Below, piece by piece: positions 11,976 through 63,090 of a stretch of 64,000 bases of DNA; the first letter of the stretch is position 1, and the number at the start of each line of letters is the position of its first letter. A model generated the notes under the pieces. It had not been told where the DNA came from, ran no database searches, and was given only the letters and a program-made list of their open reading frames with translations. The translations under genes and the position numbers were made by a program. The DNA lies in assembly GCA_021816765.1 (NCBI GenBank), contig JAKAXB010000006.1, forward strand, positions 62,001 through 126,000, written 5' to 3'. This stretch comes from Natronospirales bacterium. GTDB taxonomy: Bacteria > Pseudomonadota > Gammaproteobacteria > Natronospirales > REEB76.

Positions 11976-13313
11976 ATGACAACCTTTGCCGATCTCGTAG
12001 TGCATGCCCGCTGGATCCTGCCAGTGGAACCGGAAGTAATATATGAACAGCACGCGATAGCCATACGCGATGGGCGCATCCTCGCCATCTTGCCCTCCAA
12101 CGAGGCACGCACTCAATTCCACTCCACGGATGTGGTGGAACTCCCTGAACATGCGTTGATCCCCGGTTTCGTTAATGCCCACACCCATGCCGCCATGACA
12201 CTGCTGCGCGGTCTGGCCGATGATTTGCCGCTGATGCCGTGGTTGCAAGAACACATCTGGCCGACAGAAGCCCACTGGGTGAACGCGGAATTCGTACGTG
12301 ATGGCAGCGAGCTTGCCATTGCGGGGATGCTGCGCAGCGGCACCACTTGCTTCAACGATATGTATTTCTTCCCGGAAGTCACCGCTGATACGGCACGCCG
12401 TTGCGGCATGCGCGCCTGCATCGGCATGATCGTGCTGGACTTCCCCTCTGCCTGGGGCAGCGGCCCGCGTGATTACCTTGCCAAAGGTACGGCCTTGCGC
12501 GACCAGTATAAAGAAGATCCGCTGCTCAGCTTTGCATTCGCCCCGCACGCGCCTTATACCGTAGCGGACATCTGGCTGCAGGAAATACGCACGCTCGCCG
12601 ATGAGCTGGATGTGCCTGTTCAGACACATCTGCACGAGACCGCTCAGGAAATGGAACAAAGCCTGCAACAATACGGCCAACGGCCGCTGGCCCGGCTTGC
12701 GGAACTGGGATTGCTCACGCCGAACTTCATGGCGGTACACATGACCCAGCTCATGCAGGATGAAATCAGTGAAATCGCGCGTTGCGGTGTGCATGTGGTC
12801 CACTGTCCGGAATCCAATCTGAAACTCGCCAGTGGGTTTTGCCCGGTGGCAAGACTGCTTGCCGCCGGCGTGAATGTGGCACTTGGCACCGACGGTGCCG
12901 CCAGCAATAATGATCTGGATATGCTGGGTGAGATGCGCACTGCCGCGCTGCTGGCCAAGGGCGTAGCCGGGGATGCCACCGCGATGCCTGCCGCCACGGC
13001 CTTGCGCATGGCCACGCTCAATGGCGCACGCGCACTCGGCCTCGACAAAGACATCGGCTCGTTGATTCCGGGCAAGTGGGCGGATATGACCGCCGTGGAT
13101 CTCAGTGATGCCGAGTGCCAGCCTCTTTACCATCCCTTCTCACAGCTGGTGTATGCGGCCGGCCGCGATCAGGTGACGGATGTGTGGGTGGCGGGCCGGC
13201 ATTTATTGCGCCAAGGGGAACTGACTTGTCTTGATCTGCACAGTACCCTGCAACGTGTGCACCGCTGGGGGCAGCGCTTGGCACAGGGTGCGGCTGAGGT
13301 TACTTCTCCATGA
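11976..13313 (+). CDS. mtaD: 5-methylthioadenosine/S-adenosylhomocysteine deaminase
   Basis: A 445-residue amidohydrolase of the TRZ/ATZ family. Metal ligands are visible in VNAHTHAAMTLLRG (HxH), in THLHETAQEM, and the aspartate in LGTDGAASNNDLDML; HCPESNLKLASGF is the usual substrate loop. Pseudomonas MtaD, found in the same position next to mtnA and ubiG, deaminates methylthioadenosine to methylthioinosine. The family also includes SAH and cytosine-like deaminases, so substrate assignment rests on context. The end overlaps ubiG by four bases. Confidence 0.9.
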   Translation: MTTFADLVVHARWILPVEPEVIYEQHAIAIRDGRILAILPSNEARTQFHSTDVVELPEHALIPGFVNAHTHAAMTLLRGLADDLPLMPWLQEHIWPTEAHWVNAEFVRDGSELAIAGMLRSGTTCFNDMYFFPEVTADTARRCGMRACIGMIVLDFPSAWGSGPRDYLAKGTALRDQYKEDPLLSFAFAPHAPYTVADIWLQEIRTLADELDVPVQTHLHETAQEMEQSLQQYGQRPLARLAELGLLTPNFMAVHMTQLMQDEISEIARCGVHVVHCPESNLKLASGFCPVARLLAAGVNVALGTDGAASNNDLDMLGEMRTAALLAKGVAGDATAMPAATALRMATLNGARALGLDKDIGSLIPGKWADMTAVDLSDAECQPLYHPFSQLVYAAGRDQVTDVWVAGRHLLRQGELTCLDLHSTLQRVHRWGQRLAQGAAEVTSP

Positions 13314-14020
13314 ACATCTCACATGCCAACGTCGACAGCCGGGAAATATCCCGATTCGAGGCTCTGGCGTCCCGCTGGTGGGATGCCACGGGAGAATTCC
13401 GCCCGCTGCATGCCATCAATCCCCTGCGCCTCGATTACATTGATAAGTGCGCGGGCCTTGAAGGCAAGCGTGTCCTGGATATCGGCTGCGGTGGAGGCTT
13501 GCTGACGGAAGCCATGGCCCAACGTGGCGCCGAAGTCACCGGCATTGACATGGCGGAAGCACCGCTCGCAGTGGCGCACCTGCATCTCAAGGAATCGGGA
13601 CTCAAGGTTGCATATCGCCGGATCACCGCGGAGGCGCTGGCGGCGGAAATGCCGGCCCGCTTCCATGCGGTGACCTGCATGGAAATGCTCGAGCATGTGC
13701 CGGAACCCGGTTCCGTCGTGCGTGCGTGCGCTACGCTTGCGTGTCCCGGGGGCCATGTATTTTTCTCCACGTTCAACCGCAACTTGAAATCCTTCTTGTT
13801 CGCCATTGTCGCCGGCGAATATGTGCTGCGACTCATCCCCCGCGGCACCCACGGATATGCCAGGTTCATCCGCCCGTCCGAACTCGACCGTTGGGCGCGG
13901 GACGGGGGTCTGGTGCTGCGGAACAGCACTGGACTGCATTATCAGCCACTGACGCGTCGCTACCGTTTGGGCGGTGATGTGGACGTGAACTATTTCATGC
14001 ACTTCACGCGACAGGATTGA
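13310..14020 (+). CDS. ubiG: Ubiquinone biosynthesis O-methyltransferase
   Basis: A 236-residue class I SAM methyltransferase that performs both O-methylations of the ubiquinone ring. NVDSREISRFEALASRWWD and FRPLHAINPLRLDYI at the N terminus are diagnostic of UbiG. The SAM site is VLDIGCGGGLLTEAMAQRG with the acidic residue in GIDMAEAPL. The gene starts with ATGA overlapping mtaD. mupP starts seven bases after its stop. The product supplies the quinone used by the complex I encoded later in the window. Confidence 0.96.
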   Translation: MNISHANVDSREISRFEALASRWWDATGEFRPLHAINPLRLDYIDKCAGLEGKRVLDIGCGGGLLTEAMAQRGAEVTGIDMAEAPLAVAHLHLKESGLKVAYRRITAEALAAEMPARFHAVTCMEMLEHVPEPGSVVRACATLACPGGHVFFSTFNRNLKSFLFAIVAGEYVLRLIPRGTHGYARFIRPSELDRWARDGGLVLRNSTGLHYQPLTRRYRLGGDVDVNYFMHFTRQD

Positions 14021-14026
14021 GCATTG

Positions 14027-14713
14027 ATGCAACTGGTGCTTTTTGACCTCGATGGCACATTGCTGGATACGGCGCCTGACTTGGGCACTGCGCTCAACAC
14101 CCAGCGCGCCGAACACAACCTGCCGCCATTGCCGCAGGAAATGATCCGGCCGGTGGTCTCCCATGGCTCGCCGGCATTATTGAAACTGGGTTTCGGCATC
14201 GAGCAGAATGATTCACGCTATGCCGGCATGCGCGCACGTCTGCTTGCCATTTATGGCGGTTGCCTCAGTTGTGAAACGCGCTTTTTTCCGGGAATCGAAA
14301 CCGTGCTGCAGGAATTGGAGCGGCGCACCCTGCGCTGGGGCGTTGTCACCAACAAGCCGGGGGCATTGACGGAACCGCTGCTCAGGATATTCCATCTCGC
14401 CCAACGCGCTGTCTGCGTGGTCAGCGGTGACACCACGCCACGCCGCAAACCGCATCCGGATCAGCTGCTGCACGCCTGCAAACTCACCGGCTGCAGCCCG
14501 GCCGACAGTATCTACGTGGGTGACGCGCAGCGTGATGTGGAAGCAGGGCGCGCCGCCGGCATGCAGACGCTTGTGGCCCTGTATGGCTATATTGACGCCG
14601 GCGAACGGCCGACTGACTGGCAGGCGGACGGCCTGCTGGAAAAGCCCATCGACCTGCTGGCGTGGCTGGACAGCCATGCCCATGCAACCGCCGCCGTGCG
14701 AGAGACTGGATGA
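14027..14713 (+). CDS. mupP: HAD phosphatase, N-acetylmuramic acid 6-phosphate phosphatase MupP (Gph-like)
   Basis: A 228-residue HAD-superfamily phosphatase. Motif I is LFDLDGTLLDTAPDL, motif II is the threonine in VVTNKPG, and the motif III/IV region reads RKPHPD...YVGDAQRDVEAGRAAGM. By sequence alone it could be phosphoglycolate phosphatase (Gph). The position between ubiG and the yciK side of the cluster matches Pseudomonas MupP, which works in cell-wall recycling toward UDP-MurNAc. A TTG at 14024 precedes the chosen ATG. The stop overlaps rmuC by four bases. Confidence 0.85.
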   Translation: MQLVLFDLDGTLLDTAPDLGTALNTQRAEHNLPPLPQEMIRPVVSHGSPALLKLGFGIEQNDSRYAGMRARLLAIYGGCLSCETRFFPGIETVLQELERRTLRWGVVTNKPGALTEPLLRIFHLAQRAVCVVSGDTTPRRKPHPDQLLHACKLTGCSPADSIYVGDAQRDVEAGRAAGMQTLVALYGYIDAGERPTDWQADGLLEKPIDLLAWLDSHAHATAAVRETG

Positions 14714-15951
14714 TGGTCATCGTATTCACAGTTGTCGTCCTGGTGATCGGGCTCATTGCCGGTTACGCAGTCGCCGTGATGCGTGAGCGCCGGCATATCA
14801 GTGAACTGGGAATCGAGCTGGCCACGCTCAGGGCCAAAGCCGAGGCCGTGAGCACCACCCGTGAGGAACTGGAAAAGACCTTCAAGGCCCTGGCGGGCGA
14901 TGTGCTCAGGAACAATAACCAGTCCTTTCTGGAACTCGCGACCCAGAATCTCGGCAAATTCCAGGTGGCAGCCCAAGGCGAACTGGAAAAAAAGGAAAAG
15001 GCCTTCGCGGACTTGGTGAAACCTATCAGCGAAACCCTCAAGAAAACCGAGGAACAAATCCATCAGATAGAAAAGGAACGCAAGGAAGCCTACGGCAATA
15101 TCACCCGCTATCTCACCAGCATGAATGAGACCCAGGCCCAGTTGCAGGCGGAAACGCGCAACCTGGTGCAGGCGTTGCGTCGGCCGGAGGTGCGCGGCCA
15201 GTGGGGTGAAATGACGCTGCGGCGCCTCGCCGAACTGGCCGGCATGGTGAAATACTGCGATTTCACCGAGCAGGACAGCCGTGATACGGATAGCGGCCGG
15301 CTGCGTCCGGACATGATCGTGCGCATGCCGGACAAGCGCGAGCTGGTGGTGGACGCCAAGACACCGCTTGATGCCTACTTGAACGCGGTCGGCGCCAAAA
15401 CCGAGGAAGAACGCCGCCAGTTCCTGCAGCAACATGCGCGCAAGGTACGCGAGCGCATGCGTGAACTGGCCAGCAAGGCTTACTGGACTCAGTACCGGAA
15501 TTCCCCGGATTTCGTGGTGATGTTCGTACCCGGCGAACAGTTTCTGAGTGCGGCTCTGGACGAAGACCCCAAACTCATGGAAGACGCTTTCACCAACAAG
15601 GTGGTACTCGCCACGCCTACCAGCCTGATCGCCCTGTTGCGTGCGGTGGCATTCGGCTGGCGTCAGCAGGCGGTGGCCGAAAATGCGGAACAGATCCGCG
15701 AACTGGGCGAGGAACTCTTCAAACGTATCGCCACCTTCAATGAACACCTGGGTCGTATCGGCCGCGCCCTCGGGCAAAGCGTGGAACACTACAACAAGGC
15801 GGTGGGTTCCTGGGAACATCAGGTGTTGCCCAGCGCGCGGCGCTTCCCGGAGATGGGCATACAGGAAAAAAAACCGTTACCGGAACTGGAGCAGCTGGAC
15901 GTGACGCCGCGCAGTGCCGGCGACGACAGCCCGGATGACTCCAAAACATGA
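14710..15951 (+). CDS. rmuC: DNA recombination protein RmuC
   Basis: A 413-residue RmuC-family protein. An N-terminal membrane-spanning helix (VIVFTVVVLVIGLIAGYAVAV) is followed by about 150 residues of coiled coil rich in Glu, Lys and Gln, then a nuclease-fold core containing VRGQWGEMTLRRLAELAGM, RPDMIVRMPDKRELVVDAK and FVVMFVPGEQFLSAAL. RmuC limits inversions at short repeats in E. coli; its exact activity is not settled. The two ATGs at 14710 and 14713 overlap the mupP stop. The end overlaps the next gene by 17 bases. Confidence 0.94.
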   Translation: MMVIVFTVVVLVIGLIAGYAVAVMRERRHISELGIELATLRAKAEAVSTTREELEKTFKALAGDVLRNNNQSFLELATQNLGKFQVAAQGELEKKEKAFADLVKPISETLKKTEEQIHQIEKERKEAYGNITRYLTSMNETQAQLQAETRNLVQALRRPEVRGQWGEMTLRRLAELAGMVKYCDFTEQDSRDTDSGRLRPDMIVRMPDKRELVVDAKTPLDAYLNAVGAKTEEERRQFLQQHARKVRERMRELASKAYWTQYRNSPDFVVMFVPGEQFLSAALDEDPKLMEDAFTNKVVLATPTSLIALLRAVAFGWRQQAVAENAEQIRELGEELFKRIATFNEHLGRIGRALGQSVEHYNKAVGSWEHQVLPSARRFPEMGIQEKKPLPELEQLDVTPRSAGDDSPDDSKT

Positions 15952-16783
15952 CGCTCTTGAGCAGGCGCGGCGCAAGCTTGCCGCCGCGCCCGCAGACCTG
16001 CGTTTTGCCGTGCTGTTCACGCCGCGCGGGCAGCGTGAAGCGCTTACGGCATTGTTCGCCGTCTATGTGGAAATCCGCGAAATTCTGCGCGAATGCAGCG
16101 ATGCAGGCGTAGCACAGGCCAAACTCGCCTGGTGGCGGAAAGAAATCAGCCTGCTTGGGGAGCGCAAGCCGCGCCACCCGCTATCCCTGAACCTGTTGGC
16201 CACCAGTGAAAAACGGGTGCTGCCGATCCAGCCATTCCTGGACATCATCGAGAGCGTGCGCGCGGATATCGCCGTGCCGTCGTTTCCGCATTTCGCGGAT
16301 GTGGAACGCCACTGCCATCGCCGCGGCGGCGCCCTGGTGGAACTCGCGGCGCTGCTCCGGGGTGCACAACAACAAACCACCCTGGATGCGGCGCACCGCC
16401 TGGGCGCCGCCTGGCAGTTGGCGGATATCGTTGCGCAGGGTGCGGTTTACGCTGAACACCGCCGGGTGTATTTCGCCGCCGATGACTTGCGCAAACACGG
16501 GGTGGACCGGCATATCGGCGGTGATGTCCACACCGATACCGGACTCAAGATGCTGTTGGCCGACTATGCGCAGCGTGCGCGCGCGCTGCGGGATGCGGCC
16601 ACGGCTGGCATAACGGCGGAACGCAGGATGCTCTGCAGCGGGTGGATACTGAATGGCCTGGCGGAGGCGCGCCTGAAAAAAATTACCCGCCCTGATTACA
16701 AACCCGGCGGCGCGCCGGTAGAATTGCGGCCGCTCGCGGCCCTCACCACTGCCTGGCGCAGTGCCCGCGCCGCAACCCGTTAA
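15935..16783 (+). CDS. Squalene/phytoene synthase-family protein without the aspartate-rich motifs
   Basis: A 282-residue protein whose fold signature is that of head-to-head prenyl synthases: FTPRGQREALTALFAVYVEI near residue 29, KLAWWRKEI near 68, VERHCHRRGGALVELAALL near 128, and RRVYFAADDLRKHGV near 180. In active enzymes the two Mg-diphosphate sites are Asp-rich (DxxxD type). Here the first reads EIREILREC and the second DIVAQGAVYA, so both are lost. It is therefore unlikely to make squalene or phytoene. Mitochondrial NDUFAF6, a complex I assembly factor, is a member of this family without known synthase activity. A similar non-enzymatic role is a guess. It overlaps rmuC by 17 bases and precedes yciK. 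Confidence 0.75.
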   Translation: MTPKHDALEQARRKLAAAPADLRFAVLFTPRGQREALTALFAVYVEIREILRECSDAGVAQAKLAWWRKEISLLGERKPRHPLSLNLLATSEKRVLPIQPFLDIIESVRADIAVPSFPHFADVERHCHRRGGALVELAALLRGAQQQTTLDAAHRLGAAWQLADIVAQGAVYAEHRRVYFAADDLRKHGVDRHIGGDVHTDTGLKMLLADYAQRARALRDAATAGITAERRMLCSGWILNGLAEARLKKITRPDYKPGGAPVELRPLAALTTAWRSARAATR

Positions 16784-16809: not shown

Positions 16810-17562
16810 ATGGCCCGTTGTCCAGGTGATTACACCCCAGCGAAGGATTTGCTCAAGGATCGCGTCATTCTGGTCACGGGCGCCGGCGCCGGCATCGGTC
16901 GCACGGTCGCCAAAGGTCTCGGCGCCCATGGCGCCACGGTGATCCTGCTGGGCAGGACCACCAGAAAACTGGAAAGCGTGTACGACGAAATCCTGGCAGC
17001 CGGCGGCCCCCTGCCGGGCATCTATCCCATGGACCTGATGGGCGCCGAATACACGGACTATGAGGAGATGGTGGGCGCCCTGGATAAGGAGTACGGCCGG
17101 CTGGACGGTCTGCTGCACAACGCCGGCATCCTGGGCGAACGCGCGCCCATCGAACATCACGAAATCCATATCTGGCAGCAGGTGTTGCAGGTGAACCTCA
17201 CCGCGCCCTTCCTGCTCACCAAAGCCTGCCTGGAACTGCTGTACAAATCGCCGGATGCCTCGGTAGTGTTCACCGCCAGCGGCGTGGGCCGCAAGGCCCG
17301 TGCCTATTGGGGCGCCTACGCCGTCTCCAAGTACGGCATCGAGGCCCTGTCGCTGATGCTGGCGGATGAAACCGAATTCCGCGGCACTCTGCGGGCGAAT
17401 TCCCTCAATCCCGGAGCGGTGCGCACCGCCATGCGCCGTCAGGCATTCCCTGCCGAAGACCTCACTACATTGAAAACCCCGGAAGACATTCTGCCGGATT
17501 ATCTCTATCTACTGGGGCCTGACAGTAAAGGTGTGACTGGTCAGCAGTTCGATGCGCAGTAA
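16810..17562 (+). CDS. yciK: YciK-type short-chain dehydrogenase/reductase
   Basis: A 250-residue classical SDR. The cofactor site is ILVTGAGAGIGRTVAKGLGAHGA, the NNAG-equivalent is LHNAGILGERAPIEHH, and the catalytic Ser-Tyr-Lys set is S in VFTASGVGRKARAYWGAY, then Y and K in AYAVSKYGIEAL. This matches the YciK branch found downstream of mupP in Pseudomonas. The substrate is unknown. It ends the plus-strand cluster and converges on rluB. Confidence 0.9.
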   Translation: MARCPGDYTPAKDLLKDRVILVTGAGAGIGRTVAKGLGAHGATVILLGRTTRKLESVYDEILAAGGPLPGIYPMDLMGAEYTDYEEMVGALDKEYGRLDGLLHNAGILGERAPIEHHEIHIWQQVLQVNLTAPFLLTKACLELLYKSPDASVVFTASGVGRKARAYWGAYAVSKYGIEALSLMLADETEFRGTLRANSLNPGAVRTAMRRQAFPAEDLTTLKTPEDILPDYLYLLGPDSKGVTGQQFDAQ

Positions 17563-48550: not shown

Positions 48551-49993
48551 TCAGAAAGTGATGACCCTGGCGCAGAGCGCCATCAGCGGGCCCGGCAACA
48601 CACCCAACAGCAGGATGGCAAGACTGTTACCGGACAGCACCCAGCGCATGTCCAGGCTCGCTTCAACCGGCTTCATGCCCTCGGGCGCGCGATCAAAATA
48701 CATGAGCTTCACCACTTTCAAATAGTAGAAGGCGCTGATAATGGCGAAAATCACGCCGACTACTGCAAGCCAAATCATGCCGGCGTCAATGACTGCGCGC
48801 AGCACATAGAGCTTGCCAAAGAAACCCACAAACGGGGGCACGCCGGCCATGCCGAACATCACTATCAGCATCATGGCAGCAAACCATGGACTGCGGTCAT
48901 TGAGTCCCTTGAAGTCTTCCAGACGGTCCGATTCAAAACCCTTGCGTGCCAGCAGGATGATGATGCCGAAAGCCGCGGCAGCCATGATCACATAGGTGAT
49001 GACATAGAACATGGCGGCTTGATAGCCGGCGGTGGTGCCGACGAGAATGCCCATGAGGATGTACCCCACATGGGAAATGGTGGAATAGGCCAGCAGGCGT
49101 TTCAGGTTGGTCTGCACTATGGCCACAATACTGCCGATAGCCATGGACAGGATCGATAGTACGATGAGCATCGTGCGCCATTCGGCACGCAACCCGCCAA
49201 GTCCTTCCACCAGCAGACGCATGAACAGCGCAAAAGCGGCGATCTTGGGCGCCGAGCCCACGTAGAGCGTCACGGGCGTGTTCGCACCCTCATATACATC
49301 GGGAAGCCACATATGGAACGGTACGGCACCCAGCTTGAAACACAGACCCACGATGATGAAACCCAGAGCGAACATCACACCGATATTGATATCCGGTGCT
49401 TCGGCGATATGCACGCCCAATCTCGTGATATCCAGCGTACCGGTTGCACCGTAGAGCAGCGACATGCCGTACAGCAATATACCGGAGGCGATGGCGCCCA
49501 GCACGAAGTATTTCATGGCGGCCTCGGAAGCCGCCGGGGAGTCGCGATCCAGCGCTACCATGGCGTACAACGACAGAGATAAAAGTTCGAGGCCGAGATA
49601 GATGGTGATGAAATTATGTGCCGAGATCATCACCATCATGCCGAGCATGCCAAACAGGCCCAGCACATAGAATTCTCCTTTGAACAGATTTCGGTCGTTG
49701 AAATAATCGCGCGCATACAGAAAGGTCAACGCCACCGTCAGATAGGTAAATAGTTTGAACACATTACCCATGCTGTCGTTGATGAACATGTCGCTGAAGG
49801 TGAGTAGCCCGGCATTTTCAGCCACGGTTACCGTCAGCCAGGCGGTGGCGGCAATGGTCGCCAGGGACAGCCAGTGCGTCACAACGCGGTGGCGGTCGCT
49901 GAGAAACACATCCACCAACAGGATAAAACAGCCCATCCCGAGCACGAACATCTCGGGGATTGCCGGAGTGAAAGCTGGCAGCGTAAAGGTCAT
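48551..49993 (-). CDS. nuoN: NADH-quinone oxidoreductase subunit N
   Basis: A 480-residue antiporter-like membrane subunit of complex I with about 14 hydrophobic helices. The family motif HMWLPDVYEGANTPVTLYVG carries the conserved proton-path region, and KRLLAYSTISHVGYILMG is also typical. The ATG at 49993 follows GAGGAAG; the open frame begins with a TTG at 50005. It is the last nuo gene; the tRNA-fMet follows on the same strand. Confidence 0.96.
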   Translation of the reverse strand: MTFTLPAFTPAIPEMFVLGMGCFILLVDVFLSDRHRVVTHWLSLATIAATAWLTVTVAENAGLLTFSDMFINDSMGNVFKLFTYLTVALTFLYARDYFNDRNLFKGEFYVLGLFGMLGMMVMISAHNFITIYLGLELLSLSLYAMVALDRDSPAASEAAMKYFVLGAIASGILLYGMSLLYGATGTLDITRLGVHIAEAPDINIGVMFALGFIIVGLCFKLGAVPFHMWLPDVYEGANTPVTLYVGSAPKIAAFALFMRLLVEGLGGLRAEWRTMLIVLSILSMAIGSIVAIVQTNLKRLLAYSTISHVGYILMGILVGTTAGYQAAMFYVITYVIMAAAAFGIIILLARKGFESDRLEDFKGLNDRSPWFAAMMLIVMFGMAGVPPFVGFFGKLYVLRAVIDAGMIWLAVVGVIFAIISAFYYLKVVKLMYFDRAPEGMKPVEASLDMRWVLSGNSLAILLLGVLPGPLMALCARVITF

Positions 49994-50015
49994 GGGCTTC
50001 CTCAAAAATCAATGC

Positions 50016-51530
50016 TTACAGTTTTGACTGCACCGCTTGGTGCACCAGATTCACCACCGACGCATGCATCACATTGAGCAGCGGCGCCGGCCAGATACCG
50101 ATCACGACCACCGGGATGGCGCACAGGCCGAGAACGATGAACTCGCGCTTGCTGATATCCTGCATCGTGGCAACGTGATCATTTCCCACCGGTCCATAGA
50201 GCACACGTTTCACCAGCCACAGCGTATAGGCTGCGCCGAGAAACAGGGTGAAGGCCGCGCCGAAAGCAATCCAGAAATTGGCTTTCATGCTGGTGAGTAT
50301 CACCATCCATTCGCCCACGAAACCGGACGTGCCCGGCAGCCCGACATTGGCCATGGCAAACAACACCATGAAAAAGGCGAATGCCGGCATCATGTTGATG
50401 ACGCCACCGTAGGCATTGATCTCACGGGTGTGCAACCGGTCATACAACACACCGACGCACAGGAACAGTGCGCCGGAAACAAAACCATGGGAGATCATCT
50501 GTACCAGGCCGCCCTCCACGCCCATGACCGTACCGCTGGTGCTCGCGGTTTTCTCGAAAATGACGAACAGGATGAAGAAGCCCAGCGTGACAAAACCCAT
50601 ATGCGCAATGGAGGAATAAGCCACCAGCTTCTTCATGTCCGTCTGCACGACAGCCACGAAACCTATATAGATGATGGCGATCAGCGACAGTGCGATGACG
50701 AGCCACATGAGCGCATGGCTCGCATCCGGAGCGATGGGCAGGCTGAAACGCAGGAAACCGTACGCACCCATCTTCAGCAGAATCGCCGCCAGGATTACCG
50801 AACCGCCGGTGGGCGCTTCCACATGCGCGTCCGGCAGCCAGGTATGCACCGGCCACATGGGGACTTTCACGGCAAACGCCGCCAGGAAGGCCAGAAAAAT
50901 GAGCGCTTGGGCAGTCATGCCAAGCGGCATTTGCTGAAAGGTCAGAATGTCGTAGCTGCCGGATTTCACGTACATGTAGATGATGGCCACCAGCATGAAT
51001 ACCGAACCCAGGAAGGTGTACAAAAAAAACTTGATGCTGGCATACACGCGTCGCGGCCCGCCCCAGATGCCGATGATCAGAAACATCGGGATCAGCATGG
51101 CTTCCCACAACACGTAAAACAGCAGACCGTCCAGGGCCGAGAACACGCCGTTCATGAGCCCTTCCATGATGAGAAAAGCCGCCATATATTGGGCAAGCTT
51201 GTAGTGAACCACCTCCCAACCGGCGATCACCACCAGTACGGTCATGAAGGTGGTAAGCAGGATCAGCGGCATGGAAATGCCGTCCACGCCCAGGTGATAA
51301 TGGACATGGAAAGTCCGGATCCAAGGCAGGTTTTCCACGAACTGCATGGCCGCGGTACCGGTGTTGAACTGGGTCCACAAAGGCACACTGACGGCAAACA
51401 CCAGGACAGAAAAAAACAACGCCAGCCAGCGTACCGACCTGGGTGCCACCCGCCCCGCCAGAAGCACAATGACGCCACCAGCGATCGGCAGCCACAGCAA
51501 CACGCTCAGGATAGGAAAGTGTGTGGTCAT
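50016..51530 (-). CDS. nuoM: NADH-quinone oxidoreductase subunit M
   Basis: A 504-residue antiporter-like subunit. WPVHTWLPDAHVEAPTGGSV with the conserved residues of the proton channel, and KKLVAYSSIAHMGFVTLGFF, identify NuoM. The glutamate in YVLWEAMLIPMFLIIGIWGG of helix 5 is conserved. GGAAA precedes the ATG. The gene lies 12 bases after nuoL. Confidence 0.97.
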   Translation of the reverse strand: MTTHFPILSVLLWLPIAGGVIVLLAGRVAPRSVRWLALFFSVLVFAVSVPLWTQFNTGTAAMQFVENLPWIRTFHVHYHLGVDGISMPLILLTTFMTVLVVIAGWEVVHYKLAQYMAAFLIMEGLMNGVFSALDGLLFYVLWEAMLIPMFLIIGIWGGPRRVYASIKFFLYTFLGSVFMLVAIIYMYVKSGSYDILTFQQMPLGMTAQALIFLAFLAAFAVKVPMWPVHTWLPDAHVEAPTGGSVILAAILLKMGAYGFLRFSLPIAPDASHALMWLVIALSLIAIIYIGFVAVVQTDMKKLVAYSSIAHMGFVTLGFFILFVIFEKTASTSGTVMGVEGGLVQMISHGFVSGALFLCVGVLYDRLHTREINAYGGVINMMPAFAFFMVLFAMANVGLPGTSGFVGEWMVILTSMKANFWIAFGAAFTLFLGAAYTLWLVKRVLYGPVGNDHVATMQDISKREFIVLGLCAIPVVVIGIWPAPLLNVMHASVVNLVHQAVQSKL

Positions 51531-51542
51531 GTTGTGTTTCCG

Positions 51543-53573
51543 CTATCGCAACAACAGCCAGCCCAGCAACAGGCACAGGCCTACGATCATGGCAAAGGCA
51601 TAGTGATACAGATACCCGGACTGACCGCGGCGCAGGACTCCGGATAACCAGCCCACTGCGCGCGCCGAACCGTTCACCAGTACGCCATCAATGACAACAC
51701 CGTCACCGCCCTTCCACAGCGCGTTACCCAGACCGCGCGTACCACCGGCAATGAAAAAGGCGTAGATCTCGTCGAAATAGAACTTATGGATCAGCAATTG
51801 ATAGAAGGCGTTAAGTTTCTGCGCCAGCAGGGCCGGCAGCTGCGGCGCATACAGGTAAAAGAACCAGGCCACGAGAACTCCGGCCAGCGCCAGATAGAGG
51901 GCGGGTGAAGTCACGCTTTCCCTCACCATGTTGGCGGCACCATGAAATTCATCGGTGAGCCTCTGCATGACATGATGATTGGGTGCCACATAAATGGATG
52001 AGCCGAAGAAACCGCCGTACAGCACAGGTTGTATGGTCAGCCAGCCGATGAACAGCGATGGGATGGCCAACAGGATCAACGGCACGGTCACCACCCAGGG
52101 AGATTCCTTGGGTGGATGGGCCAGGTGGCCGGGCGCAAGATGTTCCTCGCTTGCGTGATCTTCATGCCCATGGTCATGCTTGCCGCCCGGTTCCACCACG
52201 AAGCGTTCCTTGCCGTGGAAAGTCATGAAAAACATGCGGAAGGTGTACAGCGCGGTTACGAATACGCCCAACAGCACACACCAGTAGGCAAAACTCGCGC
52301 CCGCGCGCTGCGAGTCATGGACCGCCGCAATGATGGTGTCCTTGGAGAAAAAACCGGCGAAGCCGGGGAAGGCAATCAGTGCAAGCGAACCTATCAGGAA
52401 GGTGATATAGGTGATGGGCATGTACTTGCGCAGACCGCCCATGCGGCGCATATCCTGTTCGTGGTGCATGGCGATAATTACCGAGCCCGCCGCTAAAAAC
52501 AGCAATGCCTTGAAGAAGGCATGCGTCATCAAATGGAAGATACCGGCTGCATAGGCGGAGGCGCCCAGGGCGACTGCCATGTAACCCAGTTGTGAAAGTG
52601 TCGAATAGGCGATCACGCGCTTGATGTCGTTCTGCACGATGCCCACCAAACCCATGAAGAAGGCGGTGATGGCGCCGACGATCATCACCACCGACAGCGC
52701 CGTATCCGAGAGCTCAAACAGCGGCGACATGCGCGCCACCATGAAGATGCCGGCGGTCACCATGGTGGCGGCGTGTATCAGTGCCGAAATGGGTGTCGGG
52801 CCTTCCATGGAATCCGGCAGCCACACATGCAGCGGCACCTGCGCCGACTTGCCCATGGCGCCCACGAACAGCAGGATACAGATGACAGTAGGTACCGACC
52901 AGGCTAGGCCCGGGAAAAGCTGCATGTGCTGGCCGGCAAGCTGCGGCGCGTAGGCGAACACCGCGGCGTAATTCACGCTGCCGCTATAGGTGAGTACCAG
53001 GGCGATGCCCAGCAGGAAGCCGAAATCTCCTACGCGATTCACCAAGAAGGCCTTGAGGCCGGCATAGATGGCCGTGGGCCGGGTGTACCAGAAACCGATG
53101 AGCAGATAGGAGACCAGTCCCACCGCTTCCCAACCGAAGAACAACTGCAGGAAGTTGTTTGCCATCACCAGCATGAGCATGGCAAAAGTGAACAGGGCGA
53201 TATAACTGAAGAAGCGTTTGTAACCCGGATCATCCGCCATGTAGCCGATGGTATAGATATGCACCATCAGCGAAACAAAACTCACCACGGTGATCATGAG
53301 TGCTGTCAGGCGGTCCACCAGGAACCCCACCTGAAATTGCACATTGCCCACCACGCCCCAGTTGTACACGGTGACGTTGAAATTGCCCATACTGTTGTAC
53401 AGCATTTGCCAGAGCACATACACTGACAACACAAACGATACGGCCACGCCCAGGATGGTCACCCAGTGTGAAAAATGGCGTGGGATGAAGCGCATGAAAA
53501 TGCCGGCGATAACGGCCGCTGCAAGCGGCGCCAGCACGATGATGAGGAAAATGGTTGGCATCGCCGGATTCAT
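51543..53573 (-). CDS. nuoL: NADH-quinone oxidoreductase subunit L
   Basis: A 676-residue subunit, the distal proton pump, longer than M and N because of the long lateral helix at the C terminus. VPLHVWLPDSMEGPTPISAL, IHAATMVTAGIFMVARMSPL and KRVIAYSTLSQLGYMAVALG are classic NuoL motifs. A His-rich cytoplasmic loop (KHDHGHEDHASEEH) occurs near residue 470. The ATG at 53573 follows AAGGG at the end of nuoK. Confidence 0.97.
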   Translation of the reverse strand: MNPAMPTIFLIIVLAPLAAAVIAGIFMRFIPRHFSHWVTILGVAVSFVLSVYVLWQMLYNSMGNFNVTVYNWGVVGNVQFQVGFLVDRLTALMITVVSFVSLMVHIYTIGYMADDPGYKRFFSYIALFTFAMLMLVMANNFLQLFFGWEAVGLVSYLLIGFWYTRPTAIYAGLKAFLVNRVGDFGFLLGIALVLTYSGSVNYAAVFAYAPQLAGQHMQLFPGLAWSVPTVICILLFVGAMGKSAQVPLHVWLPDSMEGPTPISALIHAATMVTAGIFMVARMSPLFELSDTALSVVMIVGAITAFFMGLVGIVQNDIKRVIAYSTLSQLGYMAVALGASAYAAGIFHLMTHAFFKALLFLAAGSVIIAMHHEQDMRRMGGLRKYMPITYITFLIGSLALIAFPGFAGFFSKDTIIAAVHDSQRAGASFAYWCVLLGVFVTALYTFRMFFMTFHGKERFVVEPGGKHDHGHEDHASEEHLAPGHLAHPPKESPWVVTVPLILLAIPSLFIGWLTIQPVLYGGFFGSSIYVAPNHHVMQRLTDEFHGAANMVRESVTSPALYLALAGVLVAWFFYLYAPQLPALLAQKLNAFYQLLIHKFYFDEIYAFFIAGGTRGLGNALWKGGDGVVIDGVLVNGSARAVGWLSGVLRRGQSGYLYHYAFAMIVGLCLLLGWLLLR

Positions 53574-53574
53574 A

Positions 53575-53883
53575 TCAGCCCTTCATGCTGTCCAGTTCTT
53601 CAACATTGATACTGTGGCGGTTACGGAACAACACCACCAGGATGGCAAGGCCGATGGCAGCCTCGGCTGCGGCCACGGTGAGAATGAAGAACACGAACAC
53701 CTGCCCAGCCGGATCGTTGAGATAACGCGAAAAAGCGATGAAATTGGAATTTGCCGCCAGCAGCATCAATTCGATGCACATAAGAAGCAGAATCAGGTTC
53801 TTGCGGTTGAGAAACACACCCGCCATGCCAATGGCAAACAGCACACCGCTCAGGGCCAGGAAATCAAACAGGGTGATGGTCAT
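53575..53883 (-). CDS. nuoK: NADH-quinone oxidoreductase subunit K
   Basis: A 102-residue subunit with three membrane helices. The conserved glutamates are in [18 protein letters not shown] and in the third helix ([19 protein letters not shown]), both part of the proton path between the pump and quinone module. It overlaps the nuoJ stop by four bases, and the nuoL start follows immediately. Confidence 0.96.
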
Positions 53884-54497
53884 GGTGCTTCTCCTCCCCG
53901 GCTGCGACCCGATGGCATCTTGACCAGCCGGATGCGGCCGTGCTTGGCGCTGACCCGCACCTGTTTTGCGGGATTCTGACTGCGGGTACCCGGGCGACGA
54001 CGCAGAGTCAGCGCGATGGCCGCCACGATGCCTACCAGCAGAATCACCGCCGCCAGTTCAAAGGGATAGGCATAGGTCGTATAGATCACGTCGCCCAGTG
54101 CACGGGTATTGCTATATTTCGCGGCATGCGTTACCGGCGTGCCGAACGTCACTCCGAGTTTCCGTGTCCACACCACGTAGCCGATTTCCACCACCACCAC
54201 GGCCGCCACCACCACGCCAAGCGGCGCATAGCGCACGAACCCCTGACGCATGGTGGTGGTGTCGATATCCAGCATCATCACCACGAAAAGGAACAGCACC
54301 ATGACCGCACCCACGTACACCAGCACCAGCACCAGGGCGAGGAATTCCGCCTCCAGCAGAATCCACAGACCGGCGCTGGTGACAAAGGCCAGCACCAGAA
54401 ACAAGGCTGAGTGCACCGGATTACGCGCGCTGATGACGCCGAGAGCGGAGCCGATCAGGATTGCCGCCAGTACGATGAAAATAACGGCCTGTACCAT
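53880..54497 (-). CDS. nuoJ: NADH-quinone oxidoreductase subunit J
   Basis: A 205-residue subunit with five membrane helices. [20 protein letters not shown] and [20 protein letters not shown], which contains the bulge of helix 3, are diagnostic. The C-terminal tail is basic and longer than usual (after residue 170). It starts 11 bases after the nuoI stop. Confidence 0.96.
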
Positions 54498-54508
54498 GTT
54501 CCCGGTCC

Positions 54509-54997
54509 TCAGCGGTAAGGCGCATCGGCCGCGCGTTCAGCGGCGATCTGCGCCTCGTACTTATCGCCGATGGTCAGCAGCTTTTCCTTGGTCATGATTT
54601 GCTCACCGCGCTTTTCAAAATGAAACTCGGTAATGCTGGTTTCCACGATGGCATCCACGGGGCAGGCTTCTTCGCAAAAGCCGCAGTAGATGCACTTGAA
54701 GAGATCAATGTCATAGCGCGTGGTGCGGCGCGTGCCGTCCTCGCGCTGCTCCGAATCAATGGTGATGGCGAGTGCCGGGCACACCGCCTCACACAGTTTG
54801 CAGGCGATGCAGCGTTCCTCGCCGTTAGCGTAGCGGCGCTGGGCGTGCAGACCGCGATAGCGCGGCGATTTGGGTGTCTTCTCCTCCGGATAACGGAGGG
54901 TCACCTTGCGGGCGAAAAACAGCTTTCCCGTGAGCCCCAGACCCTGGAACAGTTCCACCAGCAACAGACTCCTGATCCAACTGCGCACTGTGTTCAT
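54509..54997 (-). CDS. nuoI: NADH-quinone oxidoreductase subunit I
   Basis: A 162-residue ferredoxin-like subunit carrying the two [4Fe-4S] clusters N6a and N6b: [16 protein letters not shown] and [18 protein letters not shown]. The N-terminal amphipathic segment attaches it to the membrane arm. The length equals typical NuoI (about 160-180). It follows nuoH after seven bases. Confidence 0.97.
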
Positions 54998-55004
54998 GGT
55001 GCTC

Positions 55005-56102
55005 TCACGCGAACCAGGGTGGGATCTTCAGCACAATGGCCACGCCCTCCAGCACCAGCCACAGGATGGTGATGGGGATGAATACCTTCCAGCCGAGCCG
55101 CATGATCTGGTCATAGCGGTAGCGCGGAAAGGTGGCGCGGAACCACAAAAAGGCATACAGAAAGACGCAGGTCTTGACGGCAAACCATATAAAGCTTGTG
55201 TGCACCAGGAAGGCCAGAGGCGTGTCTTCCAGGAAGTGCCAGCCCTGTACCGGTGACAGCCAGCCGCCCCAGAACAAGGTGGCAGCCAGCGCGGAAATCA
55301 GGATCATGTTGGCGTATTCCGCAAGGAAAAAGGCGGCAAATGCCGTGCCGGAGTATTCCACATGAAACCCCGCGACGATTTCCGATTCGCCCTCCGCCAC
55401 GTCGAAGGGGGCGCGGTTGGTTTCCGCCACACCGGAAATAAAATAGATGACAAACAGCGGCAGCAACGGCAGCCAGAACCAGTGTGAAAATCCGCCATTC
55501 TGGGCCAACACGATGTCATTGAGATTGAGGCTCTGACTGGCCATGAGCACACCCACCAGGGCAAAGCCCATGGCGATCTCGTAGGACACCATCTGTGCCG
55601 CCGAGCGCATGGCGCCCAAGAAGGCGTATTTGGAATTGGAGGCCCAGCCGGACAGAATGATGCCGTACACCCCGAATGAGGTGAGTGCCAATATGTATAA
55701 AAGGCCGGCATTGGCATTGGATAGCATCACGCCATTGCTGAAGGGGATCACCGCCCAGGCAGCAAAGGCCGTGGAGATGGAAATGACCGGTGCAGTGATA
55801 AACAAGAACCGGTTGGCATTGGTGGGAAGAATTACCTCCTTGAATACCAGTTTGAGCACATCCGCGAACGGCTGCAGCAAGCCCCAGGGGCCCACACGAT
55901 TCGGCCCCATGCGCACCTGCATGAAACCGATGATGCGCCGCTCGGCCAAAGTCAGGTAAGCCACTGTCAGTATAAGCGGCAGCATGATTGCAACTATGCC
56001 GGCCAGAGATTTCAGCGTCAGTTGCCAGGCGAACGGCAGTGATATCCAGTAGGTTGTCAGCGCGCTCCAAAACGCATGCAACTTGGTTAACAGCTCTGAC
56101 AT
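55005..56102 (-). CDS. nuoH: NADH-quinone oxidoreductase subunit H
   Basis: A 365-residue subunit with eight membrane helices that forms much of the quinone site. [20 protein letters not shown] and [19 protein letters not shown] are its strongest signature, and [20 protein letters not shown] holds the acidic residues of the E-channel. The ATG overlaps the nuoG stop by one base. Confidence 0.97.
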
Positions 56103-58489
56103 CAGGCTCGCTCCAACTCCACACTGGCATACAGTGGCGCGAAACCCGCGGTGGCCGCAATGCCTGCCGGCAGGAACACGTTGCCCGATTGCACGCTGTC
56201 ATCCAACTTTACCGGCAGCGTGATGCGCGCACCCGCATGCTGCACTGCAACTTGAGCGTTATCCGTGATACCCAACTTCCTGGCATCCACCGGTGACAGC
56301 CGAACCCAGGCGGCATCGGCGTCATGCGTCGCCTGCAGCGGTGCGGAGCGTCGTGCCAGCATGTCAACCGAATACAGCGGGACCTCGGCCACGCGCTTGA
56401 AACCCTTTACCGGCGGCTCTGCATAGATGTTGCGCGTGCCTTTGAACTGGTTATCCGGTGCAATCTCAGCCAAAGCTTGCTTCAGCTCGGCGCGCACTTC
56501 TTCCGAAGACACGAATGCAAAACCCTCCAGCTCACACAGGTTGCCCAGTACACGCAGAATCTTCCACCCCGGCCGCGCCTCCCCCACGGGCTTCGCCATA
56601 CCGGTGAAGCTTTGCCAGCGACCTTCCGCATTCACATGGGTACCGGACGTCTCGCCAAAACTGCACGCAGGCAACAGCACCGCAGCATAGCGTTTCATGG
56701 TGTCCGTCACAAACGGGGTGATAGCTACCACAGAGGCTTTCTGCAGCGCGCCGAGTGCGGCTGTTCCATCCCAGCAATCCAGCTCCGGTTCCACACCCAT
56801 CAGCACATAGGCCTTGCGCGCCTCCGTGAACATGGCGCGGGCATCAAGGCCCTTGAGGGCGGCTTTCCTGCCCCCGGCAATGCGGTGCGGCACTGCGCCC
56901 GCGAGCCAGGCGCCTGAGCTGTTGGCGCCTTCGGAGATATAACCCAGCTTGGCGCCGGCGACATCGGCAAGCGCCGCTGCCAGCATGCGCAGGTCGGCAT
57001 AGGCGGGGTGGGACAGCGCCAGATGGCCAAGTAAAATTCCCGCGCACTTGCCTTGGAGCAAGTGCGCAGCGATTTTTTCGTGCTCCGCTTGCGGCGCCTG
57101 GGCCTGTACAAAATCCTTAAGATGGGCGGGCAGCGGCTTCCTGGCTGCCTTCGCCGCAGCCTTTACTATCGCCGCGAGCTCCGCCGGCAAGGTATAGGCA
57201 TCTGCACTGAGATAAGCGGTCAGTGGAAACAAGAATTCATAACGGCGTGGATTGAGGAACATCACCGCCGCGCCGTGCAGGGAGGCCTTGCGGATGCGAT
57301 GCGCGAGCAGCGGCACTTCCTTGCGCAGGTTGGAACCTATGATGAAAGCGGTATCAAGCCTCTCCAGGTCTTCGATGGAGTGGCCCAGCCACGGGAACAG
57401 CGGCTCAAACTCGTCATCGCGGAAGTCCGCCTGGCGCGGGCGCGTATCAATGCTGTGGATGCCAAGACCGCGTGCCAGCTTCTGCAGCAGGTAGAGTTCT
57501 TCCGTGGTGGAGCCGGGTGAAGCAAGCACACCGGCATCACCGTTTACGCTGCGTAATACTTTCGCCGCTGCCGCGAGCGCCGTCTCCCAGTCAACCTCGT
57601 GCCAGCCGCTGTTTTGTTTCAGCATCGGGCGTTCCAGGCGATCGGTGCTGTAGATACCGGCATAGCTGAAGCGATCCCGGTCGGCAATCCAGGTCTCGTT
57701 CACCGCCTCATTGGGCCTGGGCACGGTGCGCATCAATTTTCCGCGCAGCACGTGGCCATAGAGGTTGGAACCCACACAATCGTGGGGCGATACCGTCTCA
57801 TGCCGGGTCATCTCCCAGCCGCGGCCGTGCATCTTGAACGGCCTGGAATTGAGTGCGCCCACCGGACAGATATCAATGACATTGCCGGACAATTCATGAT
57901 CCACGCTGCGGCCTATGTAGGTGCCGATGCGTGAATGCTCGCCACGCCCGGTATCACCCAGCTCTTGGATACCGGCGATTTCCATGCCGAAGCGCACACA
58001 GCGCGTGCAGTAAATGCAGCGCGTCATGAAGGTGGAAATGAGCGGCCCGATATTTTCGTCCTTGATCACGCGCTTGCGCTCCGAGAAACGCGCGATGCCC
58101 CGACCATAGCCCATGGCCAGGTCCTGCAACTCACATTCGCCGCCCTGGTCGCAGATAGGGCAGTCGAGCGGATGGTTGATGAGCAGGAACTCCATGGTGG
58201 CACGCTGTGCGGCAATAGCCTTCTTCGAGCGCGTGAAAATCTTCATGCCCTCCATCACCGGCGTGGCACAGGCCGGCAGCGGCTTGGGGGCTTTCTCCGC
58301 TTCGATCAGACACATGCGGCAGTTGGCCGCGACTGAAAGTTTTTCGTGGTAACAGAAGCGTGGGATATACACTCCCTCGCGATCAGCGGCCTGCATGATC
58401 ATTTCGCCCTTGCGGGCCTTGACGGTCTTGCCGTCTATTTCGATATTGACCATTTGTTCTGTCATCGGCATTTCTGCTGTTGTGCTCAT
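56102..58489 (-). CDS. nuoG: NADH-quinone oxidoreductase subunit G
   Basis: A 795-residue subunit of the NADH module. The N-terminal region carries one [2Fe-2S] ([21 protein letters not shown]...CATP), the His-ligated N5 region ([14 protein letters not shown]) and the N6-type cluster ([14 protein letters not shown]). The rest is a molybdopterin-oxidoreductase-like domain without a cofactor. It starts at 58489 ([20 protein letters not shown]); later methionines at 58465 and 58453 are possible since no clear ribosome site is seen. It is shorter than E. coli NuoG (908) and is separated from nuoF by ten bases. Confidence 0.95.
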
Positions 58490-58499
58490 CTGCGCAGAC

Positions 58500-59804
58500 T
58501 CAGGCTGCTTGTCTGCGGGCGCCCGGGCCCACCATGCAGCAGCCGTGATCAATGTGATACTGAAATTCGTCACGGAAATACTTGATGAAACTCTGCACCG
58601 GCCAAGCAGCCGCATCGCCAAAGGCGCAGATGGTATGACCCTCGATGTTCCTGGACACACTCACCAGTAGATCCAGGTCTTGCTGGCGGCCCTGTCCCGC
58701 CTCGATACGCGCGATGACGCGGTGCATCCAGCCGGTACCTTCACGACACGGCGTGCATTGGCCGCAGGATTCGGAATAGAAGAAGCGCGAGGCACGCTCC
58801 AGCATCTTCACCATGCAGGTGGTTTCATCCATCACCACCACCGCGCCGGAACCCAGCATGGAACCGGCATTACGCAGCGAGTCGAAATCCATGCTGCAGT
58901 CCAGCATGACATCGGCGGGCAGCACCGGTGCGGATACCCCGCCGGGAATCACTGCCTTGAGCTTACGGCCCAGCCATACGCCGCCGGCCATGGCCAGCAG
59001 TTCCTTGAAGGAAGTACACAGGGGTACTTCAAAATTGCCTGGCTTGGCGACATGGCCGGTGACGGAAAATATCTTGGTACCGGCGTTGTTGGGCCGGCCG
59101 AATGCCGCAAACCACTTGGCGCCGTTGTGCATAATGCTGGGTACCGAGGCGAAGGTCTCGGTGTTATTCACCGTGGTGGGCCGGCCGAACACGCCGTAGT
59201 TTGCCGGAAACGGCGGTTTGAAGCGCGGCCAACCCTTTTTGCCTTCCAGGGAATCCAGCAGCGCGGTTTCTTCTCCGCAAATATACGCGCCGGCGCCCAA
59301 GTGGGAATAAATATCCACATCCACCCCCGTGCCGAGGATGTTTTTCCCCAAAAGTCCGGTCTGATAAGCCTCCTTCAGCGCCCGTTCGAAGCGCGTATAG
59401 GGCTCATCCATGAATTCACCGCGGATGTAGTTGTAACCCGTCCTGCAGCGCATGGCATAGCAGCCGATGGCCATGCCCTCGACGAGCGCGTGCGGGTTGT
59501 AACGCAGGATATCTCGGTCCTTGCAGGTACCGGGTTCCGATTCGTCGGAATTGCACACCACGTAGGATGGCGCCGTGGGGCTCTTGGGCATGAAGCCCCA
59601 TTTCACGCCGGTGGGAAAACCGGCGCCACCGCGGCCGCGCAGCCCCGAGGCCTTTACTTCTTCAATCACCTGGTCCGGCGGGATTTTTTCCTTGAGAATT
59701 TTCTTCCATGCCCGGTAGCCGTCCACCTTCAGGTAGTTGTCCAGGGTCCACGGCTTGTCGAACTGCAGCGTTTTGTAGCAGACCTGATCCAGAGGCACAC
59801 TCAC
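58500..59804 (-). CDS. nuoF: NADH-quinone oxidoreductase subunit F
   Basis: A 434-residue flavoprotein subunit, the NADH dehydrogenase site. [20 protein letters not shown] binds FMN, and [19 protein letters not shown] binds NADH. The N3 [4Fe-4S] cluster ligands are in [15 protein letters not shown] plus the cysteine in [13 protein letters not shown]. It overlaps nuoE by four bases. Confidence 0.97.
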
Positions 59805-60304
59805 TTCAGGCCCTCCAGGATTCTATCCAGCATTTCCGGGGTGAGATTTTCGTAGTATTTGTGGTCCACCATCATCATGGGGCCGCCGGCGCAGGCGGCA
59901 AGACACTCCTCCTCGCGCTTAAGATAACAGCGGCCGTCGGGTGTGCTCTCGCCGGTCTTGATGCCGAGCTTCTTCTCGATGTAAGCCACGATGTCGTCCG
60001 CGCCGCGCAACATGCAGGAAATATTGGTGCATACGGAAATGCTGTGGCGACCGACAGGCCTGGTCTCGAACATGGAATAGAAAGTGGCCGCCTCATAGAC
60101 TTTGATGGGCTCCAGCTTGAGATAGTCCGCCACCGCGTCCATGAGTTCCACGGTAAGATAACCCTTGTTCTCGTGCTGCACTTCCCGCAAGGCGTCAAAA
60201 ATCGCCGAGCGCTGACGTCCCTCAGGATATTTTTTCACAGCCTCATCGATCACCTGCCGGGCATTTTTCGACAGTAAGCTGATTTTGGAACTGGTTTCGG
60301 TCAT
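59801..60304 (-). CDS. nuoE: NADH-quinone oxidoreductase subunit E
   Basis: A 167-residue thioredoxin-like [2Fe-2S] subunit (cluster N1a). The ligands are in [19 protein letters not shown] and [20 protein letters not shown]. The N-terminal helical bundle contains [20 protein letters not shown]. It overlaps nuoD by one base upstream and nuoF by four downstream. Confidence 0.97.
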
Positions 60305-61557
60305 CAGCGGTCCACCTCTCCAAATACGATATCCTGGGTACCGATAATCGCCACCAGATCCGCCAACATGTGTCCGCGCACCATCTCATCCAGGGCGGCA
60401 AGATGCGCGAATCCCGCGGCGCGGATCTTCACCCGGAACGGCTTGTTGGCTCCGTCGGAAATCATATAGATGCCGAACTCCCCCTTGGGATGTTCGATGG
60501 CGGCATACACCTCGCCCGCGGGTACACCGTAGCCTTCGGTCATGTATTTGAAGTGATGAATCAAGGATTCCATGTCGGACTTCATCTGCTCGCGGCGCGG
60601 CGGCGTGACCTTATGGTCCTCCAGCGATACCGGACCCGGATTCTTGCGCAACCAGTTGATGCACTGACGCACAATATGGTTGGACTGACGCATTTCCTCA
60701 ATACGCACCAGATAGCGGTCATAACAGTCGCCATTCATGCCCACGGGGATATCGAAATCCATCTGTTCGTAGACCGCGTAGGGCTGCTTCTTGCGCAGAT
60801 CCCATTCGATGCCGGAACCACGCAGCATGGGGCCGGAAAAACCAAGCTGCAAGGCGCGCTCCGGCGTTACCACGCCGATACCGACGGTACGCTGTTTCCA
60901 GATACGGTTATCCGTAAGCAGCACCTCGTATTCATCCACGCACTGGGGAAAGCGTCTGGTGAAGTCCTCGATGAAGTCCAGCAATGAACCCTGACGTGCC
61001 TGGTTCATGCGCCGTATATCCCCCTTGCTGCGGAAGCGGGATTTCTGGTATTGCGGCATGCACTCCGGCAAATCGCGATACACGCCGCCGGGACGGTAGT
61101 AGGTCGCATGCATGCGCGCGCCAGACACTGCTTCGTACATGTCCATAATATCCTCACGCTCGCGGAAGCAGTACAGAAATACGGTCATGGCACCGATGTC
61201 GAGGCCGTGAGCGCCAAGCCATAGTAGGTGGTTGGTGATACGCGTCAGTTCATCGAACATTACACGGATGTACTGCGCGCGGATCGGCGGTTCTATGCCC
61301 AGGAGCTTCTCGATAGCCATCACATAGGCATGCTCGTTGCACATCATGGACACGTAGTCGAGCCGGTCCATATAACCGATGCTCTGATTGTAGGGCTTGC
61401 TTTCGGCAAGCTTCTCGGTGGCGCGATGCAGCAGGCCGATATGCGGATCAGCCTTGGTGATAACCTCGCCGTCCATCTCCAGCACCAGGCGCAACACACC
61501 ATGGGCCGCCGGATGCTGCGGGCCGAAATTCATGGTGAAGTTCTGGATCTCAGGCAT
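60304..61557 (-). CDS. nuoD: NADH-quinone oxidoreductase subunit D
   Basis: A 417-residue 49-kDa-type subunit, related to the large subunit of NiFe hydrogenases, lining the quinone cavity. [40 protein letters not shown] and the C-terminal [12 protein letters not shown] are standard. It is a separate protein; E. coli has a NuoCD fusion. The start is ATG at 61557 (MPEIQNF); the open frame from 61587 lies inside nuoC. The start overlaps the nuoC end by eight bases. Confidence 0.97.
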
Positions 61558-62242: not shown

Positions 62243-62254
62243 TGAATTACTCGG

Positions 62255-62731: not shown

Positions 62732-63090
62732 TCCAAGGCTCCCTTCTTCCATTCGTAAATGAATCCCACCACCAGAATGGCAAGGAAGAGCAGCATGGCC
62801 AAAAAGCCGAACAACCCGATGCGATGCAGCGACACGGCCCAGGGAAACAGGAAGGCGATCTCCAGATCAAAAATAATGAACAGGATAGCCACGAGGTAAT
62901 AACGCACGTCGAACTTCATGCGGCTGTCTGTAAAAGGTTCAAAACCGCATTCATAGGGAGACTGCTTTTCACTGTCTGCGCGGCGATTACCGAGCAGCGC
63001 GCTGGCAACAAATCCCGCTCCCACCAGCACGCCACCAAACAGGAAACCGCATATCAGAAATAACAGGATTGGAACGTAATTCTGCAGCAT
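62722..63090 (-). CDS. nuoA: NADH-quinone oxidoreductase subunit A
   Basis: A 122-residue subunit with three membrane helices. [20 protein letters not shown] and the second-helix [20 protein letters not shown] are diagnostic. The start at 63090 ([20 protein letters not shown]) follows GAGG; the frame is open to 63144 without support. It is the first nuo gene, about 80 bases after the tRNA-Leu. Confidence 0.97.

Follow-up and report, generated by a model that had tools for sequence, protein, structure and literature searches.

What does a squalene/phytoene synthase-type protein do in a bacterium once both of its Asp-rich motifs have been lost? The question is raised by gene X, an open reading frame in the 64,000-nucleotide stretch of a Natronospirales genome analysed here (the window; Table 1), for which the original prediction suggested a role in complex I or quinone-related assembly, as a possible relative of the eukaryotic complex I assembly factor NDUFAF6. 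In humans this factor is the product of a disease gene of unknown biochemical function, and to our knowledge no simple bacterial system has been used to study it.

Gene X has a predicted synthase fold and has lost both Asp-rich motifs

Gene X starts within the final codons of rmuC and matches the Pfam profile SQS_PSY (PF00494) with E=7.3e-35 and 121 bits, the cut-off being 26. Its top NCBIfam model is HpnD (TIGR03465), with 155.7 bits under a curated cut-off of 278.6; judged by profile score, gene X is related to HpnD and stays below the threshold for being called HpnD. A structure model of the protein (mean pLDDT 90.6, pTM 0.91) was nearest, among solved structures, to CrtM (TM 0.82) and other squalene/phytoene synthases (TM around 0.8), with TM values of 0.75–0.84 against CrtM and HpnC. 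Profile and model thus bear out the squalene/phytoene synthase fold first read from the sequence. Since the alignment used as input for the model held 37 relatives that were mainly motif-bearing HpnD, this fold was to be expected and the model is uninformative on activity. A Natronospirales relative (L003) is 88% identical to gene X of the window.

For residue counts, 67 gene X sequences were aligned with 130 HpnD and 20 alphaproteobacterial relatives. D48, D52, D168, D172, R45, N164, R167 and Q161 are found in every one of the 130 HpnD, whereas the corresponding residues of gene X in the window are R, R, Q, Y, V, D, A and Q, so that only Q161 is retained. The original prediction that both Asp motifs are lost was confirmed (R48xxxR52 and Q168xxxY172 against four Asp in 130/130 HpnD), and the segments that it regarded as kept, KLAWWRKEI and RVYFAADDLRKHGV, are indeed conserved segments of the family. 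The first motif (D48 with D52) is kept in 0/67 gene X members and the second (D168 with D172) in 4/67; as loss of the first is common to all 67 aligned members, chance is ruled out. R45, invariant in HpnD, is retained by 15% of members. Other positions are strongly conserved across the 67 members, namely W67 and H81 (100% each), W66 (99%), P82 (97%), K/R63 (96%) and E70 (91%); because they are about equally conserved in HpnD, they are inherited and not new acquisitions of gene X. Judging by the motifs, it is supported that gene X is not a prenyl synthase. The four members with D168xxxD172 and no first motif (L136, L144, L147 and L151) are possible intermediates in motif loss.

Table 1. Features of the window around gene X, with the complex I operon
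Feature	Position	Strand	Basis and remarks
ubiG	13310..14020	+	TIGR01983, 265 bits; about 2 kb upstream of gene X
mupP/gph-type HAD phosphatase	14024..14713	+	MupP model is best match, 186 bits, under cut-off 359
rmuC	14662..15951	+	PF02646, E=1.5e-102; start from ORF tool, true start may be further downstream; stop at 15951; overlaps start of gene X
gene X (degenerate HpnD, squalene/phytoene synthase-fold, putatively non-catalytic)	15935..16783	+	282 aa; ATG at 15935, TAA ending at 16783
First Asp-rich motif position	16064..16102	+	Residues 44-56, YVEIREILRECSD; D48/D52 to R/R, R45 to V, E46 kept; alignment with 130 HpnD
Kept signature KLxWWRxE...HP	16115..16180	+	Residues 61-82; no variation at W67 or H81 among 67 members
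Second Asp-rich motif position	16415..16480	+	Residues 161-182, QLADIVAQGAVYAEHRRVYFAA; D168/D172 to Q/Y, R167 to A; alignment
C-terminal region	16712..16780	+	Helix at residues 266-281 (model) with PLRxLWxAWRxAR-type motif, shared with HpnD
yciK (SDR oxidoreductase)	16810..17562	+	NF006509, 338.5 bits, above cut-off; downstream edge of slot
nuo (complex I) operon	48551..62752	-	nuoB to nuoN recognised; context, separate from gene X

Gene X recurs in gammaproteobacterial genomes and is under purifying selection

Gene X was found in 54 of the 276 gammaproteobacterial genomes sampled, a count made by hand from profile score, motif and position with about 50 loci read, and leaving out weak cases (for example G028, G029, G164 and G268). 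Most of the Natronospirales genomes examined carry it. The literature searched, which was covered in part, yielded no account of this family in gammaproteobacteria. Betaproteobacterial relatives at about 30% identity, which a genome scan had offered as orthologues, were rejected, being motif-bearing HpnD mostly with HpnC upstream.

Identity of gene X to most members outside the genus is 17–32%. Among close relatives its pairwise dN/dS is 0.18–0.45, higher than that of the neighbours ubiG, mupP and yciK (0.07–0.18). These ratios indicate that gene X is under purifying selection with a constraint weaker than in neighbouring genes. The difference is what weak constraint would give, and it counts against the explanation proposed below. 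The typical order is ubiG-mupP-(rmuC)-X-yciK, with ubiG in the cluster in most families. In five families (L148, L157, L171, L172 and L255) a relocated gene X overlaps or touches the end of mutS, and in one family it is located after a relA/spoT gene.

Gene X lies in the slot of hpnD

In other gammaproteobacteria the slot of gene X is occupied by active hpnC-hpnD(-hpnE), an observation that is new here. Active-type HpnC-HpnD with their motifs follow rmuC in L083, L108, L111, L114, L115, L116, L118, L119, L129 and L130. The first of these is of the same order as the window and reads rmuC-hpnC-hpnD followed by an HpnE-type amine oxidase, with gene X absent from its genome (G001); L115 reads rmuC-hpnC-hpnD-yciK. 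At L267 the arrangement is mtaD-ubiG-mupP-HpnC-HpnD-HpnE with yciK beyond, and HpnC, HpnD and HpnE each score above their curated cut-offs. The two genes exclude each other: HpnD is present in 0/54 gene X genomes vs 72/222 others (p=1.5e-8, n=276 gammaproteobacteria). Moreover, the HpnD model is the best match for gene X proteins, with scores between 155.7 bits (window) and 259.7 (L134), the latter just under the cut-off given above.

Shared slot, exclusion and profile score together lead us to read gene X as HpnD with lost catalysis. By these sequence criteria it is very probably a retained HpnD descendant whose catalysis was lost at the original locus, on one or more occasions. Besides model score and slot, it shares with HpnD the fold, the KLxWWRxE and HP segments and the C-terminal PLRKLWxAW-type segment; it differs in the residues listed above, in its score below the cut-off and in the want of an adjoining hpnC. 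CrtM, HpnC, CrtB and squalene synthase have the same fold as gene X but are active enzymes with both motifs, and HpnC and CrtB fall on the opposite side of the tree described below. The arguments for an HpnD origin come from gene position, mutual exclusion and profile score; against it, the tree places gene X outside the sampled active HpnD.

At one locus (L149:1814-4849) a degenerate HpnC-like gene stands directly before gene X, between rmuC and yciK, and both members of the pair appear to lack their motifs. The other PF00494 gene of the window's genome (L001:36-2526) is of squalene-synthase type, has intact motifs and adjoins an hpnA-like gene; squalene in this organism would therefore be independent of gene X.

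An alphaproteobacterial family resembles NDUFAF6

Alphaproteobacteria carry a separate degenerate PF00494 gene, which comes directly after a DUF498 gene in several genomes and after secDF-DUF498 in L250. The two are neighbours in L242, L243, L244 and L250 (about 3.5–5.3 kb in each), and in L233 secD is further off. DUF498 we take to be the family of NDUFAF3, and the two genes are likely a bacterial NDUFAF3-NDUFAF6 pair beside membrane-protein export genes. In this family A has mostly taken the place of D48 and of D168; position 52 is often D or E, and H is frequent at position 172. The corresponding replacements are AxxxD and AxxxH (or SxxxH) in human and Arabidopsis NDUFAF6, with Drosophila differing (PMC12470011). 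Because of this match we liken the alphaproteobacterial gene to NDUFAF6, and by its residues the secDF-DUF498-linked gene is the best candidate for a bacterial counterpart here. In one alphaproteobacterial family (f193; L213, L214, L216–L220, L227 and L228) the proteins are without the segment around RxYLPxD and about 25 residues shorter.

Like gene X, NDUFAF6 and the alphaproteobacterial counterpart are PF00494 proteins without the Asp motifs. The absence of DxxxD from NDUFAF6 proteins has been reported (PMC8007014, PMC12470011), and the function of such motif-less proteins has been stated as unknown (PMC8007014). The human and Arabidopsis residues differ from the RxxxR and QxxxY of gene X in the window. 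The alphaproteobacterial protein has W67 and E46 conserved, and differs from gene X in its neighbourhood and in coexisting with HpnD (in G303 and G328). Candida albicans NDU1 (orf19.2500) is likewise a PF00494 protein that lacks both DxxxD motifs and is linked to complex I (PMC8007014); compared by description, it differs from gene X in being mitochondrial and in its lineage-specific inserts. A search of the Protein Data Bank for an NDUFAF6 chain found none.

We also built a tree from which both motif regions were removed; it sampled bacterial sequences only. A branch with 92/92 support separates gene X and the alphaproteobacterial family from all motif-bearing enzymes, and Natronospirales gene X falls in a subgroup with the NDUFAF6-like family (98/94). 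A place among active HpnC/HpnD/CrtB, which the original prediction had named as evidence against itself, is thus not where gene X falls. The branches are long, however, and forcing gene X apart or together with HpnD costs only about 10 log units, neither arrangement being rejected (AU p=0.24 each).

Complex I and the ubiG neighbourhood

As pointed out before, ubiG lies in the cluster of gene X, and the window holds a nuo operon on the minus strand (nuoB to nuoN, 48.5–63 kb), but about 32 kb or more from gene X. No nuo genes were recognised beside gene X at any gene X locus read. The suggestion that proximity to ubiG is a sign of a quinone role did not hold, the slot being shared with active hpnC-hpnD and moved copies following mutS or relA/spoT. 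Since the slot is that of HpnD, gene X has its place near ubiG by inheritance, which tells little of function, and a quinone role deduced from the ubiG operon was dropped as evidence. The same applies to the argument that retention in an operon implies a function other than prenyl condensation: such a function is sensible, given motif loss and purifying selection, but the operon part of the argument is weakened.

For co-occurrence, complex I was scored by NuoD or NuoH, as NuoD alone missed two NuoH-bearing genomes (G123 and G096). By this marker 249/276 gammaproteobacterial genomes have complex I. Gene X is present in 53/249 of these vs 1/27 of the nuo-less genomes (p=0.037, uncorrected for relatedness); frequent occurrence without complex I, the other outcome named beforehand as contrary, was therefore not seen. 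Most nuo genomes are without gene X. DUF498 was found in 50/54 gene X genomes vs 175/222 others (p=0.02). G165 has gene X and nuo whereas G032 of the same genus has neither; a combined gene X and NuoD profile, aimed at co-loss within one order, turned up only two genomes there. Gene X and nuo also go together in a same-family pair (G277/G067). In another family, G173 (L155; 90% complete) has gene X without NuoD or NuoH, and G044 has nuo without gene X, a pair that is the reverse of the complex I prediction.

Overall, the pattern would agree with a factor of use only where complex I is present, yet dispensable for complex I. The proposed complex I role is suggested by the weak co-occurrence and by the tree that joins gene X with the NDUFAF6-like family; the G173 exception and an AU test that does not reject independent loss (p=0.24) stand against it. 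Given non-catalytic descent from HpnD, a complex I assembly role is a tentative reading of these analogies.

Proposed and alternative explanations

We propose that gene X goes back to HpnD, the presqualene diphosphate synthase once encoded in the gammaproteobacterial ubiG-mupP-rmuC-hpnC-hpnD-yciK region. Certain lineages would have dropped or replaced the HpnC/HpnD/HpnE squalene route and lost hpnC. In HpnD the D48xxxD52 site would have gone and, in some lines subsequently, D168xxxD172, so that the protein could no longer ionise farnesyl diphosphate with its normal Mg cluster. Selection has preserved the fold together with two helices, the one with KLxWWRxE...HP and the C-terminal one with PLRxLWxAWR. 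Motif loss, retention, slot and exclusion with HpnD are observed; the function that we infer as most likely is that of a membrane-associated, non-catalytic binding or chaperone factor, like the supposed role of NDUFAF6 in mitochondria, which may aid complex I assembly at the quinone end or in the membrane part (NuoH region). Taken whole, with a retained, non-catalytic HpnD descendant and complex I as the leading guess, this account is plausible, if somewhat short of probable.

The closest alternative makes gene X a true bacterial orthologue of NDUFAF6, a single early loss of catalysis in Pseudomonadota having given both gene X and the alphaproteobacterial secDF-DUF498-linked family, the source of the mitochondrial protein. 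Both groupings in the tree (92/92 and 98/94, motif regions removed) speak for it, as do a profile-profile alignment of the two families over 280 columns (E=1e-38) and the W67 (100%) and, mostly, E46 kept in both. It is nevertheless unlikely, as the neighbourhoods differ (ubiG-rmuC-yciK vs secDF-DUF498), gene X sits in the HpnD slot and excludes HpnD whereas the alphaproteobacterial gene coexists with it, the long branches allow gene X as a separate group (AU p=0.24), and gene X of the window is without the AxxxD/AxxxH of human and Arabidopsis NDUFAF6 (PMC12470011). A protein of isoprenoid or ubiquinone metabolism that binds prenyl lipids but does not turn them over, its old FPP pocket now taken by a polyprenyl diphosphate or by a quinone intermediate from around the UbiG step, would agree with the intact predicted fold and with ubiG inside the cluster in most families. 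We consider it quite improbable, because that neighbourhood is common to active HpnC/HpnD and of little functional weight, gene X persists after mutS or relA/spoT, and the HpnD-invariant R45 is left in only 15% of members.

An enzyme with altered, Asp-independent chemistry on prenyl substrates could be imagined from the four members with D168xxxD172 and from same-fold carbazole prenyltransferases among the fold search matches. However, the family shows no novel combination of conserved residues, acidic or otherwise; invariance is limited to W67 and H81, with W66, E70 and P82 close to it, and W67, H81, E70 and P82 are equally conserved in HpnD, which makes this the least credible of the alternatives. 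Little probability also goes to gene X as a decaying relic that does nothing important, or as a regulatory subunit of the active squalene synthase. Relaxed constraint relative to neighbours and fast divergence (17–32% identity to most members outside the genus) are in keeping with either, and heteromeric prenyltransferases with non-catalytic subunits are known (PMC7839719). We rejected the relic because dN/dS is well under 1, dozens of families have the frame intact and the W/H/P/E positions are conserved, and the subunit because gene X is the only PF00494 match in 31/54 gene X genomes, which have no squalene-synthase partner of that family.

Returning to HpnD descent, nuo is present in 123/126 genomes with gene X or HpnD and in 126/150 with neither (p=1e-4, uncorrected for relatedness). 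One could speculate, as a long shot, that HpnD of beta- and gammaproteobacteria, besides its catalysis, also helped to build complex I via the KLxWWRxE...HP surface, that lineages abandoning the squalene route kept the protein solely for this, and that mitochondrial NDUFAF6 shares this bifunctional ancestry.

In annotation, a PF00494 gene taken alone is no evidence of squalene or hopanoid production. Gene X probably keeps a second, non-enzymatic job, possibly like that of the human complex I assembly factor NDUFAF6, and the class-wide family of dead HpnD, together with the alphaproteobacterial gene beside a DUF498 protein, may offer two bacterial test systems for NDUFAF6.
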